Virus record (IMG/VR): IMGVR_UViG_3300034685_000383
Span: 1 to 24,801 of that record
Reading direction: 5' to 3' (one strand)
DNA from: a virus
DNA length: 24,801 nucleotides
Part shown: in pieces, positions 5,330-24,801 of the stretch
Layout: each line of letters starts with the position of its first letter
Position numbering within the stretch: the first letter of the stretch is position 1
Program-made: the position numbers and the translations under genes
Notes under the pieces: generated by a model
What the model was told of the DNA's origin: nothing
The model's database searches: none
What the model saw: only the letters and a program-made list of their open reading frames with translations

Positions 5330-6926
5330 ATAAACAACAACCCCCTTTCATCGTAAACCGAGCCGGTATTCTCCCCGCTGTGCCTTAATGCGCGGTCAAG
5401 AGCCATAATGAGCGCAACCGCGCCGTCTATTCTCTCGGTGGATTTTTCCTTATCAGGCTTGATATTTCCGGCCGGATCGTTTTGACAAAGATATTGTCCA
5501 TCATCCATCTGAGCACCGGATGTCCGCCATGAGCTATGCGCTCCTCCAAAGTCAGCTTCATCAGTTCTTTTGTGGGCGGCGACATATCCTTGAAACCCTG
5601 CCCGAAAGGAACAACCGTAAAGCCCAAAGCCTCGAGGTTCTGCGTCATCTGCACCGCGCCCCAGCGGTCGAAGGCGATTTCCCTGATGTTGTATTTCATG
5701 CCAAGCTCCTCAATAAAGCTCTCGATAAAGCCGTAGTGCACCACGTTGCCCTCGGTGGTATACAAAAAGCCCTGCCGTTCCCAGACGTCGTACGGCACAT
5801 GGTCCCGCCGCACGCGCTGGTCGATATTGTCCTCCGGTATCCAGAAAAACGGCAGGATCTGATATTTGTCCGATTCATCCAGCGGGGGAAACACCAGCAC
5901 AAAAGCTGTGATGTCCGTTGTGTTGGATAAATCAAGCCCGCCGTAGCAGGTGCGACCGCGCAGGCTGTCGGCATCGACGGGGAAGGCGCATTTATCCCAT
6001 TTCTCCATCGGCATCCAGCGCACCGATTGCTTTACCCACTGGTTCAGGCGAAGCTGGCGGAATAAGTTTTCCTCCACGGGATTCTGTTTGGCGTTTTCAA
6101 AGGCCACCCTCAATTTTTCAATATCCACTGTAATGCCCAGCGACGGATTGACCTTTTTCCATACCTTTTCGCTTGTCCAGTCGTCGGTATCGGCAGCGCT
6201 GTAGATAACCGGGTAGAATGTCGGATCTATCTTGCGTCCCTGCAGGATATCCTCCGCTTTTTGATGCACCTCCCAGCAGATGGAATTCCGGTCTGTGCCA
6301 GCGGTTGTAATCAGAAAAAACAGCGGCTGCTTCCTTGCGTCGCCGGATCCGTGCAGCATCACGTCATATAGATCCCGGTTCGGCTGCGCGTGCAGCTCGT
6401 CGAATACCACGCCATGGACGTTCAGCCCATGCTTGGTATACGCCTCCGCTGAAAGCACCTGATAGAAGCTCCCAAGCGGCCTGTACACCAGCCGCTTCTG
6501 CGACAGCATCGGCTTAATACGGGACTTTAATGCCGGACACTGCTCCACCATGTCCACCGCCACGTCGAACACGATGGAAGCCTGCTGCCTATCGGATGCG
6601 CAGCCATACACCTCGCCGCCATGCTCGAAATCGCCGCAGGTCAGGTATAGGGCAATGGCCGCCGCAAGCTCGCTCTTACCCTGCTTTTTTGGGATTTCTA
6701 CATAGGCGGTGTTGAACTGCCGGTATCCGTTGGGTTTTAAGATTCCAAATATATCCCTGACAATCTGCTCCTGCCAGTCAATGAGCTCAAAGGGCATCCC
6801 GTACCATTCGCCCTTGGTATGTTTCAGGCAGTTTATAAAGGCAACGGCGGCGTCCGCCGCTTCCTTGTCGTATCGGGAGCCTTCCGCCATAAACTTTGTA
6901 GGTCTGTATCGCTTTAACTTCCGCAG
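5326..6926 (-). pseudogene. terL: Terminase large subunit (terL), frameshifted near the 3' end
   Basis: Packaging ATPase/nuclease (Terminase_1 type). Counting from the ATG at 6890: Walker A PKKQGKS (67-73), Walker B VVFDE (161-165), nuclease Asp320 in GGLDLSNTTD and Asp408 in IAFDRWGA. The frame then breaks at 5480-5483 (AAAAC): one frame runs on to a stop at 5427. The -1 frame continues with DPAGNIKPDKEKSTERIDGA to a stop at 5326, the expected end with the last nuclease Asp. One base is missing. A start at the CTG at 6926 is likely: it has GGAGG at 6935-6939, eight bases away, and adds LRKLKRYRPTKF, whereas the ATG at 6890 has no ribosome-binding site. The stop overlaps the portal ATG. Confidence 0.9.
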
Positions 6927-6958
6927 CTTTGCCGCCTCCTTTCCTGAAAGTGAACAAG

Positions 6959-6985
6959 AAAAAAGGAACCTCCTTACGAAGTTCC
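6959..6985 (-). terminator. Intrinsic terminator between the GGCT gene and terL
   Basis: On the minus strand GGAACTTC (6985-6978) pairs with GAGGTTCC (6972-6965) through 8 pairs including one G-T, with a 5-nt loop, followed at once by six T. It stands 49 nt after the cyclotransferase stop and some 30 nt before the terL start, so it would separate the cargo genes from terL unless read through. Confidence 0.75.
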
Positions 6986-7034
6986 TCTCATCAAGTGGAT
7001 TTCTATGAAATTTCTATGCCGGCGGCGTCTTTCC

Positions 7035-7502
7035 CTATATCTCCGCTTTATCCATATGCGCCGCAGAATCCCGCACCGCTTTATTGAGCACTGAAATATC
7101 AAAGCCCGCGTCCATATATCCCTGCCGAATTACTTCGTAGTAGTAACAGCCCGGCGTTCCCAGCGGCCTGCCTTCATTCATGATATATGCCATAGCGGAC
7201 ACCCACTGCCCTTTGAAACGCACCTTAACCGTTTCCTTCCGGTAAAGATGCGGATAGCCTTCATACCGGTCCAGTGCTTCTTCGTCATTATGCGTGATTC
7301 TCCAAAGCAATACCGGCACGCTTCCGCCTTTTTGCTTTTCTATTGTCGCCACCGCGCCGCCGTTCCCGCCTCTGAAAAATAGCCGATAGCCTGTAAGCTT
7401 CGCACCTCCCAGAACCTTCGCCGTCGGACAGCGGCATGCCATCTGCTTCAAGTTCAGGTTGCTTCCGTATGCCAGATAAATTGTTCCTTTTTCCTTGTCC
7501 AT
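7035..7502 (-). CDS. Gamma-glutamylcyclotransferase-like protein (AIG2/GGCT fold)
   Basis: A protein of 155 aa from the ATG at 7502 (GGAGG six to nine bases upstream; an ATG two codons earlier is too close). The nucleotide/glutamyl-binding loop YGSN is at 12-15, and the acid expected for catalysis is Glu81 in LDRYEGYPHLYRKETV, the hallmark of the AIG2-like superfamily. Members cleave gamma-glutamyl amides to release 5-oxoproline. The gene is the last of a set with an amidoligase, an amidoligase-like paralogue and DUF4314. Such pairs of amidoligase and GGCT have been described in phages and are thought to attach and remove amide-linked tags; the substrate here is unknown. Confidence 0.85.
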   Translation of the reverse strand: MDKEKGTIYLAYGSNLNLKQMACRCPTAKVLGGAKLTGYRLFFRGGNGGAVATIEKQKGGSVPVLLWRITHNDEEALDRYEGYPHLYRKETVKVRFKGQWVSAMAYIMNEGRPLGTPGCYYYEVIRQGYMDAGFDISVLNKAVRDSAAHMDKAEI

Positions 7503-9962: not shown

Positions 9963-11215
9963 TCAAGCAATCTGTGTTTCCGCATAAGGAATTTTCTCAT
10001 CCCCGCGCAGCAGGAATGCGGCGTTATCCCCGAACTGGGAAACATAGCGCTTTGCAATCACGTCACAGTTTTCGGGTCAAGCTCCATCATGAAGCAGACC
10101 CGCCCGGTCTGCTCGGCGGCAATCATTGTCGTGCCGGAACCACCGAACAGGTCAAGCGCCAAATCTCCCGCATGGGAACTGTTGAGCATGGCCTTGGCCA
10201 CAAGCGAAACAGGCTTCATGGTCGGGTGCTCCTCCGACACTTTCGGGCGGGGTATCTCCCAGACATCCGACTGCTTTCGGTCTTTAAGCGGGCATAGGCA
10301 CGTCCCCTCCAGCCAGCCGTACCAGATCGGCTCGTACTGGGTGTGGTAATCCTTGCGGGACAGCACAAGGCTGTCCTTTTTCCATATGATCGTGCTTGAC
10401 CAGTGGTACCCCGCCTCCCGCAGGGCGTTCATAACGTTGCCCCATTCCTTGGCGCTCATCACCACATAGGTCATGCATCCGGCCTCCGAAACCTCGCGCA
10501 TGCAGTTAAAAGCTTGCAATAAAAAAGTGCCGAATTCCTCGGTGCTCATCCTGTCGTTTAGAATTTGCCTCGGCTTCCAGCTTGGATGCCGGGCGTCAGA
10601 ACCGTAATCCACATTCCATGGCGGGTCGGTGAAAATAAAACTCGCCTTTTGGCCGTCCATCAGCAGCCGCACCTCCGGCAGGGAAGCGCTGTCGCCGCAC
10701 ATCAGACGGTGCCTGCCAAGCAGCCATATATCGCCCCTTTTGGTAACAGGAGTTTTGATTTCAGCTGCCGCCTTTTCCGCATCGAAATTGTCCTCCTTGA
10801 CATTGGCGGCAGTTTTGTCGCGGAACAGCTCGTCGATCTCAGCAGCGTCAAAACCGGTCAGCGACACATCAAAACCACTATCATTTAAATCACGTAGCAG
10901 GTCGGACAGAAGCGGAATATCAAACTCTCCGCTGATTTTATTGAGCGCCACATTGAGCGCTTTTTCCCGCTGCTCGTCCAGATCAACCACAACGCAGTCG
11001 ATTTCCTTGTATCCCAAGGCAGTCAATACCTTATACCGCTGGTGTCCGCCGACGATATTCCCTGTGTGCCTGTTCCATATGACCGGCTCCACATACCCGA
11101 ATTCTTCAATGGAGCGGCGAAGCTTTTCATATTCAGCATCGCCCGGCTTTAAATCTTTCCGCGGATTATATTTTGCAGCTTTTAATTTTTCTGCAGGTAT
11201 TTTCTGTATCTCCAT
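9963..11215 (-). CDS. ParB-like nuclease/partition domain fused to DNA methyltransferase (DPPW type), frame break near the C-terminus
   Basis: N-terminal ParB/Srx-like domain (about 1-110) with GGHQR, then a beta-class methyltransferase with motif IV TDPPWNVDYG and motif I DLFGGSGTT; DPPW suggests adenine-N6 or cytosine-N4 transfer from SAM. The uninterrupted frame stops at 10058 right after ELDPK. In the -1 frame the expected end follows (CDVIAKRYVSQFGDNAAFLL) up to a stop at 9963, so one base is missing in AAAAC at 10069-10072. The catalytic part is intact and only the last 38 or so residues are lost. ATG at 11215 with GGAGG ten bases upstream. It is a close paralogue of the next gene. Confidence 0.88.
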
Positions 11216-11220
11216 AAATG

Positions 11221-12519
11221 CTAACCCTCCAGTTTGACGGCTTTTTCGCCGGTGAAGTCCTCCCAGCGCTTAACCGCCAAATCACAGTAAACAGGAGATA
11301 ACTCCATCGCATAGCAGCGGCGCCCGGTCTGCTCAGCCGCAATTATAGTGGTTCCGCTGCCGGAGAACGGCTCCAGCACAATACCGCCCTTGTCACTGTG
11401 CATTTTGATGCACCGCCATGGAAGCTCTACTGGGAACATGGCAGGATGCTCCTTGTTTGCCCGGACAGTCGTCATCTCCCAAATACCGGCATAGCCCCAT
11501 TTCTTGCGTTCTTCCTTTGTAAGCCGCTTCACAAATTTATAACTGTGCCCGGCAAATGCTGAAAGCCACATATACTCCTGATCGTTGTATTCCTCAGCCT
11601 CGCCGTTATTGCTGAAAGCTGAAATGTACTCATACTGCTGAACCGGCTTGTTTGAAACAAGATGATAAGGTCCTACGCCGAAATTTTGCCCTTGTTTCTT
11701 CCAAATACGGATCCAGATAGGGCGGTAGCCGTTGTCCAGAAACATATTCACGCTGTATACGCTGGTAGGTTCAATGAACTGGGAGCCGGTGGCGTAGAGA
11801 TCACCTAAGTTCCAGCAAACTATATCCGCATGCCTGCACAGGTTTTTGATCACCGGGCGCACGGTTTCAAACCACGGCTCGATTCCGGCCTTCTCATATT
11901 CTTTGCCTACACCATAGGGAGGAGAAGTGACCGCTATTTGAGCATGCGCTCCGTCCATGAGCTTTGCGAAGTCTGCCTCGCTGCCGGAGTCGCCGCACAT
12001 CAAACGATGATCCCCGAGAAGCCAGATATCGCCCCACTTTGTCACCGGCTCGCGCTGCATTATTTCCTCGTGCGCCTTGTCTATGTCAAAGCTATCTTGT
12101 ACCGCCTCTTTGGAGTACCATCGGTTAAGCAGTTCATCTATTTCAGAAGCGTCAAACCCTGTAAGCGAAACATCAAATGCACCTGCGTCCAACTCAGCCA
12201 TTAGCTCGGCCAGTTTATTCTCGTCCCACTCGCCCTGAATCTTGTTGAGAGCAAGATTGAGCGCTTTTTCCCTCTGCGGGTCAAGCTCCACCACAACGCA
12301 GTCGATCTCGGTCTGCCCCAAATCCAACAGCACCTTTAACCGCTGGTGGCCGCCTACCACATTGCCGGTCTGCTTATTCCAGATAACCGGCTCTACATAC
12401 CCAAACTCCTCTATTGAGCGTTTGAGTTTTTCATATTCCTTGTCGCCGGGCTTTAAGTCTTTGCGGGGATTATATGCCGCGGGATTCAACAGCTCGGCTC
12501 TGATTTTCTGTATGTTCAA
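11221..12519 (-). CDS. ParB-like domain fused to DNA methyltransferase (SPPY type)
   Basis: A protein of 432 aa from the TTG at 12519, where the alignment with the sister gene begins (MNIQKIRAEL against MEIQKIPAEK) and GGAGG stands ten bases upstream. It starts 1 nt after terS ends. The ParB/Srx domain carries GGHQR; the methyltransferase has motif IV TSPPYGVGKEY and motif I EPFSGSGTT. The SPPY signature is usual for N4-cytosine enzymes, while the sister has DPPW. No restriction enzyme gene is nearby, so these are likely orphan phage methylases that protect the DNA from host restriction or mark packaging or replication sites. The frame is intact. Confidence 0.9.
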   Translation of the reverse strand: MNIQKIRAELLNPAAYNPRKDLKPGDKEYEKLKRSIEEFGYVEPVIWNKQTGNVVGGHQRLKVLLDLGQTEIDCVVVELDPQREKALNLALNKIQGEWDENKLAELMAELDAGAFDVSLTGFDASEIDELLNRWYSKEAVQDSFDIDKAHEEIMQREPVTKWGDIWLLGDHRLMCGDSGSEADFAKLMDGAHAQIAVTSPPYGVGKEYEKAGIEPWFETVRPVIKNLCRHADIVCWNLGDLYATGSQFIEPTSVYSVNMFLDNGYRPIWIRIWKKQGQNFGVGPYHLVSNKPVQQYEYISAFSNNGEAEEYNDQEYMWLSAFAGHSYKFVKRLTKEERKKWGYAGIWEMTTVRANKEHPAMFPVELPWRCIKMHSDKGGIVLEPFSGSGTTIIAAEQTGRRCYAMELSPVYCDLAVKRWEDFTGEKAVKLEG

Positions 12520-12520
12520 A

Positions 12521-13072
12521 TCAACCACCCCTCCTTGCAGTAAGCAGCCGCTCCATAGCGTCGTCGTGGGGCGTCGCTCCTTTGTATTCGCCGGCACAGT
12601 TTTCGCGCACAACCTGATAAATCTGATACCACAGGTTGTTGGCCTGCTTCATGAAGCTTTGGCTCATGGCCACATATGGCGACGGGATGGCGTTGCCGGT
12701 GGTCGGATGCTTGGCAAGAAAGCCGAACTCGGTGATGCATTCCTCGCTCTGGATCCACCGCGCCACGCTCTGTGCGTATTGCTCGATTAGCTGCGCGGGG
12801 ATAAGATGCTCGCACCGGCGTTCCTTAAGCCACTGCCATGTCTTTTCGTATATTTCCACCGCCAGCGTCGCCTTGCCGTTCTTCTGCTTTGCGGCAAGAT
12901 AATCCCTCGGCGGCGGCATGCTCTGGCCTTCTAAATCCGCAGTTTCCGTAAACTCCATTACCATGAGCTTGCGTCTGCCGGGGTTTCCTTCCAAAATCTT
13001 ATCCGCCAGCGGCTTTTTCTTCTGTCCCGCGCCGATACGCGCCCCGCCGCGGCTGGTACCGTCCTTTGCCAT
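12521..13072 (-). CDS. terS: Terminase small subunit, P27 family
   Basis: A protein of 183 aa from the ATG at 13072 (GAGG eight bases upstream; an ATG three codons earlier is too close). The N-terminus AKDGTSRGGARIGAGQKKKP and 'ILEGNPGRRKL' are the signature of P27-type small terminases. The central helices with 'YEKTWQWLKER' and the end 'TPHDDAMERLLTARRGG' also fit. It recognises the phage DNA and hands it to the large subunit. Unusually it is about 5.6 kb from terL, with seven cargo genes between. Confidence 0.92.
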   Translation of the reverse strand: MAKDGTSRGGARIGAGQKKKPLADKILEGNPGRRKLMVMEFTETADLEGQSMPPPRDYLAAKQKNGKATLAVEIYEKTWQWLKERRCEHLIPAQLIEQYAQSVARWIQSEECITEFGFLAKHPTTGNAIPSPYVAMSQSFMKQANNLWYQIYQVVRENCAGEYKGATPHDDAMERLLTARRGG

Positions 13073-23354: not shown

Positions 23355-23753
23355 TTATTCTAAGTTTAACTTTTTTCTCAGCCACTTAATTATCTTGTTT
23401 TTTTGATAATTAAGTGTGGTTTGTGGTATTCCGGTTTCCTTCGCTACTTGACGTTCCGTTTTGTCGTTGTAAAACAGCTCGTCAATCAGAAACCGCTCCT
23501 CGTCGGTCAGTTCCGAAAGCGCCTTGGACAGCATGTCCAATAACAGCTTGTCCTCGACGATCTCGTCAACAAGCGCCTGACTGGAAGGAATCTCAAACCC
23601 GGCGTCCGCAAACGCTTCAAGCGAAAGCTCCTTTTCCGCGCGAATCTGTCTGCGCTTGCGCTCTTTCCAAGCAGGACGCTTGAAAGCATAATATACTTCC
23701 TTGCTGACCGGAATTTGCCTGCCGTTTAGTTCAATGAAATACTTCTTGTCCAT
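23355..23753 (-). CDS. Sigma-70-like / HTH phage regulator
   Basis: A protein of 132 aa from the ATG at 23753, nine bases after GGAGG; the frame is open upstream but that part is compositionally unlike a protein and contains long palindromes. The N-terminus is basic (AFKRPAWKERKRRQIRAEKE). The region 75-130 is a sigma region-4-like HTH: LSELTDEERFLIDELFYNDK, then TERQVAKETGIPQTTLNYQK and NKIIKWLRKKL. Such proteins in phages and conjugative elements regulate early genes. It stands alone between two terminators, and its ribosome-binding site is inside a hairpin. The codons for the recognition helix contain a perfect 12-bp inverted repeat. Confidence 0.85.
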   Translation of the reverse strand: MDKKYFIELNGRQIPVSKEVYYAFKRPAWKERKRRQIRAEKELSLEAFADAGFEIPSSQALVDEIVEDKLLLDMLSKALSELTDEERFLIDELFYNDKTERQVAKETGIPQTTLNYQKNKIIKWLRKKLNLE

Positions 23754-23762
23754 CCGTTTCCA

Positions 23763-23793
23763 CCTCCTTTCCCGAAAGCTCAGGGAAAGGAGG
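23763..23793 (-). promoter_or_regulatory. Hairpin that masks the Shine-Dalgarno of the sigma-like gene
   Basis: Minus strand CCTCCTTTCCC (23793-23783) is the exact complement of GGGAAAGGAGG (23773-23763), which contains the GGAGG nine bases before the ATG. The loop has 9 nt. In the mRNA the 11-bp stem would hide the ribosome-binding site, so translation should need a factor, a ribosome, heat or an alternative structure to open it. Confidence 0.7.
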
Positions 23794-23833
23794 CGGGGAG
23801 GACTGCGGCATCTATGTAAAACAGCGCAAAGAC

Positions 23834-23873
23834 AAAAGCGGCCGAGTTTACTGAAATTCGTAAACTCGGCCGC
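23834..23873 (-). terminator. Perfect 13-bp hairpin with short T-run
   Basis: GCGGCCGAGTTTA at 23838-23850 pairs with 23861-23873 around a 10-nt loop. On the minus strand TTTTGTC follows, and on the other side it is preceded by five T's complement, so it could stop transcripts coming from the right before the sigma-like gene. Confidence 0.6.
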
Positions 23874-24006
23874 AAAAACTATTCTATCAAGCAGCGCCCT
23901 GCCAGGATGGTCGTCATTGCTTTTTGCGCTGTATTGTTTTTTTATACGGGGATGGAATCGTATCCGGCGTATAGCTTTTGCCTTATGTATATTGGCAGAG
24001 AACCGC

Positions 24007-24042
24007 TTGATATTGTATGAAGTCCAAACCATACAATATCAA
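24007..24042. other. AT-rich perfect dyad, possible operator
   Basis: TTGATATTGTATG (24007-24019) and its exact complement (24030-24042) are separated by 10 nt. No T-run follows on either strand, so a terminator is unlikely. Length and spacing suit a dimeric DNA-binding protein; it lies about 255 bp upstream of the sigma-like gene. Confidence 0.5.
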
Positions 24043-24288
24043 CCTCGTCAGCTCCAACCTACACGGCAGCACCCGCCATACGCTCAGCTACAATTTAAGT
24101 CCGGCAGGTGTTGTCATGCCGAATTTGTCTTGTTCATGTTTAGGTACCTGAATTGTTTTGCAAATATGCAGTGCATGTTGATTACCATCTTTCTTCTATA
24201 TAAATTAAATAATATTGAATTATGTTGATTGCCTAAGAAAAAACCTTTGAAGCCAAAACTGGATTACACCCTAAAAAAGATAGACATT

Positions 24289-24335
24289 ACAAAAAGAACC
24301 TTCTGCTGTAGAATAAATTAACTACAGCAGAAGGT
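24289..24335 (-). terminator. Perfect 14-bp hairpin in the insertion-sequence leader
   Basis: ACCTTCTGCTGTAG (24298-24311) pairs exactly with 24322-24335 around a 10-nt AT loop. On the minus strand TCTTTTTG follows, so it can stop leftward transcripts leaving the element. Alternatively it hinders read-through into the transposase gene, a common protection in insertion sequences. Confidence 0.55.
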
Positions 24336-24498
24336 AAGTTTATGCCAAGCGAGGATAGGCATGATTAAATCTTACTCTAATTCTGCAAAAACAAAATCGT
24401 AATTGGTAGTATTACCAAAAAATATATATGGCATAAATCCTGGCCCTGTGATAAATATTTGTTACCAACAAAAATACAAACACAGGAGGTCAGAACTT

Positions 24499-24801
24499 AT
24501 GCCTGCCACCATTGTAAACTACAACGAAGCAGTTATCAACTACTTAGAAGATGTAAATTATGGTATGACTAAACCTCAGTTTAATCATCTGTCTACAATG
24601 ATAGAAGGCATTATAAGTATAGGTGATAATAAATCAATATCTAATATTGCTGAAAATATTGCACTTGCTAAAGACAAAAGTTGTATATATAGATTTTTGA
24701 GCCAGTCTCCCTGGGATGATGAACTTTTAAATCGTAACAGAATCAGTTTCTTGCAATATCATTTAGAACATAATGTGAAACCCGATACAGTTGGATTTTT
24801 T
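24499..24801 (+). CDS. IS701-like transposase, N-terminal part (runs off window)
   Basis: 101 codons are visible from the ATG at 24499 (AGGAGGT eight bases upstream), with no stop before the window end. MPATIVNYNEAVINYLED, then KPQFNHLSTMIEGIISIGD, then NIAENIALAKDKSCIYRFLS and SPWDDELLNRNRI match the N-terminal helical domain of DDE transposases of the IS701/IS4 group ('qf.hl..iv.gll......ti..ia......  hs.iyrFLs.s.Wd...l'). The catalytic DDE residues lie beyond the window, so activity cannot be judged. Codon usage is much more AT-rich than in the phage genes, which points to a separate origin. Confidence 0.85.
   Translation, partial: MPATIVNYNEAVINYLEDVNYGMTKPQFNHLSTMIEGIISIGDNKSISNIAENIALAKDKSCIYRFLSQSPWDDELLNRNRISFLQYHLEHNVKPDTVGFF

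Follow-up and report, generated by a model that had tools for sequence, protein, structure and literature searches.

A ribosome-binding-site hairpin behind a terminator and a candidate R-x-P-P arrest peptide in the leaders of sigma-like genes from phages and conjugative elements of Clostridia

Introduction

How can a gene be translated when its Shine-Dalgarno (SD) sequence is locked inside a perfect stem, and what would open that stem? The question is raised by a sigma-like gene in a phage early operon on the minus strand of a 24.8-kb virus contig (IMG/VR record IMGVR_UViG_3300034685_000383), whose full length of 24,801 nucleotides is referred to below as the window. In SecM-secA translational attenuation, a stalled ribosome disrupts the stem that hides the SD of the next gene. 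The leader described here is alike in the proposed disruption of a stem by a stalled ribosome and bears no sequence relation to that system.

Results

The sigma-like gene is the first gene of a replication operon and is located at the prophage edge. The operon also contains a 77-aa ORF and genes for an SNF2 helicase, DNA polymerase A, D5 primase, ParB-methyltransferases and terminase. The window encodes two neighbouring ParB-domain DNA methyltransferases of one family (phrog_498) at 10058-12612 on the minus strand.

23355..23753, minus strand: sigma-70 region-4-like gene, 132 aa (translation; TIGR02937 above cut-off; PHROG sigma families; homologs in L002-L009 and L041)
23751..23753, minus strand: ATG start of the sigma-like gene (sequence)

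The match of the protein to TIGR02937 (44.1 bits, cut-off 42.9) covered the C-terminal part of the model only (positions 71-165 of 165), and the sigma likeness is confined to the C-terminal half of the protein. The score against Pfam Sigma70_r4 was under the Pfam cut-off; only region 4 was matched, and region 2, responsible for core and -10 binding, is absent. By the curated cut-off, the predicted protein is a member of the sigma-70 family but lacks region 2 of a complete sigma factor. Its C-terminal, DNA-binding half has been exchanged between relatives, with the leader and the N-terminal half conserved, and the comparison suggests that the DNA-binding part is a module swapped among phages. 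Among L002-L009 the helix-turn-helix half is strongly divergent past codon ~85, against an identity of ~90-95% in the leader and N-terminal half. The sigma-like genes of L007, L008 and L009 contain in-frame TAA codons at positions 13, 19 and 40 behind an intact leader, and probably represent decayed prophages or assembly errors.

Before the gene, the minus-strand mRNA reads CCUCCUUUCCC-UGAGCUUUC-GGGAAAGGAGG-UGGAAACGG-AUG, and the whole stem-loop spans 23763-23793 on that strand.

23763..23768, minus strand: Shine-Dalgarno AGGAGG, within the 3' arm (sequence)
23763..23773, minus strand: 3' arm of the perfect 11-bp stem, GGGAAAGGAGG (sequence and repeat analysis)
23783..23793, minus strand: 5' (anti-SD) arm, CCTCCTTTCCC, with pairing continuing outward to 23796 (repeat and folding)

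As the initial annotation of this DNA had stated, the SD is enclosed in a perfect 11-bp stem with AGGAGG inside the 3' arm; the inverted repeat extends to 14 nt at 93%, for a stem of ~14 bp. The hairpin has an MFE of -27.1 kcal/mol in the window, and at 37 °C the predicted probability of an unpaired SD is 0.000, rising to 0.003 at 70 °C, in agreement with the claim that the stem is strong enough to block initiation. Temperature had been listed among the possible openers; with the stem predicted to be closed at 70 °C, an RNA thermometer is unlikely and was rejected. When dinucleotide shuffling was applied to the upstream part only, with the SD kept, the window stem had z = -3.5 and ~1 in 300 shuffles folded equally well. 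A chance origin of the stem is excluded mainly because of its homologs.

Homologs were collected by a profile of the sigma-like protein and reduced to 21 non-redundant leaders. They occur in phages and integrated (conjugative or mobilizable) elements of Clostridia, often with a recombinase (serine or tyrosine) or excisionase gene directly downstream. With occlusion defined as at least 4 of the 6 SD bases paired with an upstream arm, the SD was occluded in 19 of 21 leaders of diverse sequence and in 17 of 20 leaders of a second sample. Median MFE z values were -3.7 in the 21 leaders and -0.35 in 102 controls (p = 2e-8), with values below -2 in 17/21 leaders versus 21/102 control genes. A more stringent test of SD accessibility, made base by base, reached significance for the set as a whole, and individually in 9 of 21 leaders only. 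The SD lies in a conserved stem whose 5' arm would be covered by a ribosome on the leader. A translational switch, as first suggested for this locus, is supported as the kind of explanation because SD occlusion has been selected for, the structure being kept while the sequence changed, and we consider it very probable that the stem is conserved for function. Autogenous control and a role in entry into the lytic programme, suggested in the same annotation, are speculative, and nothing observed here singles out the sigma-like protein as the opener.

A stable stem likewise sequesters the ribosome-binding site of the transposase in the 5' UTR of IS200 tnpA (PMC12594629). The two leaders share the hairpin that hides the ribosome-binding site, whereas the IS200 gene encodes a transposase and no RxPP peptide is described for it. 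Derivation of the present leader from IS200 was considered and rejected: in L043, an IS200 copy was inserted just downstream of a related leader, bringing its own hairpin, and represents an insertion near that leader, not its source.

Further upstream, the leader contains an intrinsic terminator, ~45 nt ahead of the SD stem, and an R-S-P-P frame whose codons adjoin the anti-SD arm, neither of which had been noted in the initial annotation. Of the possible openers of the stem, this frame is the most specific candidate.

23796..23807, minus strand: R-S-P-P codons (CGC AGT CCT CCC) following R-C, a candidate ribosome-arrest motif (frame reading; arrest literature PMC12992588, PMC10987492, PMC10951233)
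23796..24032, minus strand: upstream open frame from the ATG at 24030-24032 to RSPP, with an SD-like GAGG ahead of the ATG (translation, sequence)
23838..23873, minus strand: intrinsic terminator, GCGGCCGAGTTTAC-loop-GTAAACTCGGCCGC, then TTTTGTCTTT (repeat and terminator search; L041 has a different stem in the same place)
23980..24126, minus strand: conserved 5' leader domain with stem CGGCATGACAACACCTGC/GGCGGGTGCTGCCG and 11-bp stem GATATTGTATG/CATACAATATC (kept in L041 and the orphan L039)

Intrinsic terminators within 300 nt upstream were detected in 16 of 21 leaders versus 20 of 102 control genes (p = 1e-6), and in 19 of 20 leaders of the second sample. For the conjugative-element leaders L062, L063, L070, L080 and L088, the 3' arm of the terminator doubles as the anti-SD strand. 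An inner hairpin motif resembling AAGTAGC-loop-GCTATGCGT is common to the terminators of L047, L059 and L081. The 5' domain shows strong conservation and structure, including in L041 and L039, and its 11-bp stem GATATTGTATG/CATACAATATC encloses the ATG of the upstream frame. Rfam gave no match to the leader at gathering level, with chance hits only. The copy in L039 (1495-1635) is an orphan that interrupts a patatin-like gene and is followed by no sigma gene. In the window, the anti-SD arm could also pair at long range with the 5' domain (-22 kcal/mol); this pairing was dismissed as a conserved feature, as it is not kept in L004 or L041.

The close relatives, on two virus contigs and in six genomes (anaerobic-digester Clostridia and Thermoclostridium caenicola), belong to the same phage. 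They share 91-95% identity over the ~385 nt upstream of the gene, which is single-copy in each genome. Host DNA differs beyond about -455 in most relatives, with different host genes adjoining the leader in each; the leader is therefore the first thing inside the prophage. The T. caenicola prophage has the leader at one end, large serine recombinases at its right end, and tail and lysin genes between. The sequence AAGGCGGAAT, common to both ends of this prophage, was considered as an att core and left unused, with ~0.24 occurrences expected by chance according to our own estimate. Past the recombinase, the right ends of L110, L111, L112 and L120 carry a strong sigma-A-type promoter and a Phd-like gene; this promoter, TAGACA-N17-TATAAT in T. 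caenicola, would face the leader after excision. In L036 (~6600-7400, minus strand), a tail-type gene directly follows the conserved leader and SD as the result of a deletion, which apparently took place at a common AAAGGAGGTG. Beyond the prophage end, the window encodes a transposase-like ORF (24298-24801, plus strand) with a 14-bp inverted repeat, ACCTTCTGCTGTAG, directly ahead of it.

The position of the leader invites a simpler reading, in which terminator and SD stem do no more than silence read-through from the host and true expression comes from another promoter or the excised circle, with no stalled ribosome involved. Such an insulator would suit a leader at the left end of a prophage whose host neighbours differ in each relative, as well as the strong sigma-A-type promoters beyond the recombinases at the right ends of related prophages. 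It also has a precedent in Tn916, in which a terminator (T1) at the left end silences the genes of the integrated element and an antiterminator RNA (canT) is encoded at the other end, in the excerpted account of PMC11658703. A terminator facing host DNA from the end of the element is common to both; in that excerpt, however, Tn916 control is transcriptional only, with no SD stem or RxPP frame described. By analogy, the conserved 5' domain is a candidate, and only a candidate, for an antiterminator RNA. A purely insulating role would leave unexplained the conserved R-x-P-P frame over the anti-SD strand. Moreover, a search for sigma-70-type promoters on the minus strand at 23700-24400 found none within the leader or between the terminator and the gene, hence no promoter bypassing the stem; a transcription start inside or after the upstream arm, which would have left the SD free, is likewise unsupported. 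Altogether, we consider passive insulation unlikely.

L041 retains the order of leader, sigma-like gene and SNF2 helicase, though its leader is only ~70% identical in the best-matching part. The 5' domain is still there, as are a terminator built on another stem, an RAPP and a 14-bp SD stem of other sequence (CUUACUCCUUUCCU/AGGAAAGGAGUAAG); this altered stem is a compensatory change. The upstream frame with its ATG is intact in the window, L002 and L041; in eight close relatives (L003-L009 and L036) a 1-nt deletion leads to a stop before the terminator. The RAPP frame of L041 terminates in the hairpin loop. In the window, the upstream frame stays open into the sigma frame, giving 225 aa from 24032, and the hairpin might be incidental or internal to this longer gene, hence without control of initiation. 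The upstream frame is, however, out of the sigma frame in L002, L003, L004, L006, L007 and L041, the SD and start are conserved, and the stems are maintained by compensatory change, which makes this explanation very improbable.

Leaders were then read in three frames. R-[S/A]-P-P is encoded on the anti-SD arm or immediately 5' to it, and R-[S/A/G/D]-P-P is located at -50 to -68 from the start of the sigma-like gene. Predictions had been fixed, with the motif [RK]CR[SA]PP, before the second genome set was used. After RGPP and RDPP were seen in that set, and given published permissive variants, the motif was widened to R[ASGD]PP, present in 11 of 20 first-set leaders (0.12 expected from shuffles) and 14 of 20 second-set leaders (0.1 expected), an exact count that is partly post hoc. 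Three of 102 controls contained it, two being sigma genes themselves (non-sigma controls, 1/100). Over the motif and three preceding codons, differences at codon positions 1, 2 and 3 numbered 765, 467 and 1373, and the BLOSUM score per residue was 4.2 in the RxPP frame, compared with 0.25 and 0.78 in the two alternative frames. Across the motifs, Arg and Ser are each encoded by all six of their codons. At positions outside the motif search, Cys precedes R in 25/32 and R or K stands ahead of the Cys in 23/32. Codon bias, Arg codon use and the preceding Cys together indicate that the R-x-P-P segment is conserved at the amino-acid level.

Codon-position bias extends over a longer stretch in the phage group (68/30/106) and in L055, L058 and L156 (32/21/50); in the conjugative-element groups, such periodicity upstream of the motif is absent. 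In the latter, part of the nucleotide conservation of the motif is structural, since the motif overlaps the terminator or anti-SD arm. An origin of RSPP from RNA alone (TCCTCC gives S-P-P in one frame) was rejected for the full set, as codon variation at Arg, Ser, Gly, Asp and Ala is peptide-like; among the conjugative-element leaders, an RNA-level constraint may play a part.

RxPP is missing from between a third and a half of the leaders, and the SD hairpin is still present in L056, L061, L081, L146 and L165; therefore, other keys must exist. This occurrence, together with the conserved, structured 5' domain that L041 and L039 also carry, could speak for a different opener in general: a phage protein, a small RNA, an antiterminator at the 5' domain, or translational coupling without arrest. 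Nevertheless, a conserved trans-acting site or complementary RNA was not found, and the conservation of RxPP would be unexplained unless coupling happens to favour it. We regard such an opener as likewise unlikely.

In published arrests, R-x-P occupies the P site, with the third motif residue in that site, and Pro is in the A site (PMC10987492; PMC10951233). With the ribosome edge set at +15 and R-x-P in the P site, the modelled stalled ribosome covers the SD partner bases in 27 of 27 leaders with defined partners, a match that in part follows automatically where the Pro codons double as the anti-SD. The SD stays free, ~20 nt or more beyond the modelled ribosome.

Discussion

We propose, as the best-supported mechanism and with a probability of roughly 0.58, that the leader is a nascent-peptide-arrest translational switch located behind a terminator, whose SD stem would be opened by a ribosome on the leader. 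It would act as a two-lock regulatory RNA. The terminator, as the first lock, would halt transcription entering from the prophage edge, and the stem, as the second, would hide the SD of the sigma-like gene. The key would be translation of an upstream peptide containing [R/K]-C-R-[S/A/G/D]-P-P: the ribosome would pause with R-x-P in the P site and Pro-tRNA in the A site, occupying the anti-SD strand, so that the stem could not form and the sigma-like protein would be made. If the peptide were untranslated or the pause absent, the gene would be silent. We infer the arrest at R-x-P-P from motif and geometry; opening of the stem in vivo by the stalled ribosome, and a signal that tunes the arrest, are likewise putative steps.

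RAPP-like motifs are strongly avoided in bacterial proteomes and found in small upstream ORFs, two of which, in S. lividans, precede ECF sigma genes; RAPP and RGPP arrest strongly, and RSPP and RDPP are partly permissive (PMC12992588). The known RAPP-like arrest peptides (ApdA, ApdP, ApcA, the RQH family, the S. lividans RAPP/RGPP set and CruR) likewise consist of a small upstream R-[A/G/S/D]-P-P frame before a gene they can control, and in the present leaders such a frame is conserved as a peptide. Theirs are for the most part chromosomal host genes for Sec/YidC, metal or redox functions, in contrast to the phages and conjugative elements of Clostridia considered here. The leaders of this family mostly carry RSPP with a preceding Cys, combined with a terminator, and the arrest is a candidate; a consistent membrane segment is absent, and the start codon is often not recognisable. 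More tentatively, and with more doubt than confidence, we suggest that in Clostridia phages and conjugative elements as a class R-x-P-P arrest is the sensor that unlocks a sigma-like activator, with the state of host translation or protein export deciding when the element wakes.

Our search, confined to the open-access literature, yielded no description of RxPP leaders from phages or conjugative elements. If the proposal is true, RAPP-like motifs, known mainly as sensors of host pathways, would gain a new setting in the regulator leaders of mobile elements, with a readily testable mechanism for element silence and waking, and dozens of natural RSPP, RGPP, RAPP and RDPP leaders would become available for study.

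The reading frames themselves differ between leaders. A stop follows 3-20 codons past the motif in most, and in some, the window among them, translation could run on into the sigma frame. The RxPP frame is without a convincing start codon in many or most conjugative-element leaders, for which frameshifting, unusual starts or decay are possible explanations. Most of these leaders have an obvious upstream ORF with an SD out of the RxPP frame, nearly always at the same offset, as seen for the short SD-bearing ORFs of L062, L063, L067, L070, L076, L080 and L088, where the offset is identical. The constant offset possibly reflects a programmed frameshift. In L055, L058, L147, L154, L156 and L160, a conserved run of seven A residues near -215 lies just inside the open RxPP frame and is a possible -1 frameshift site.
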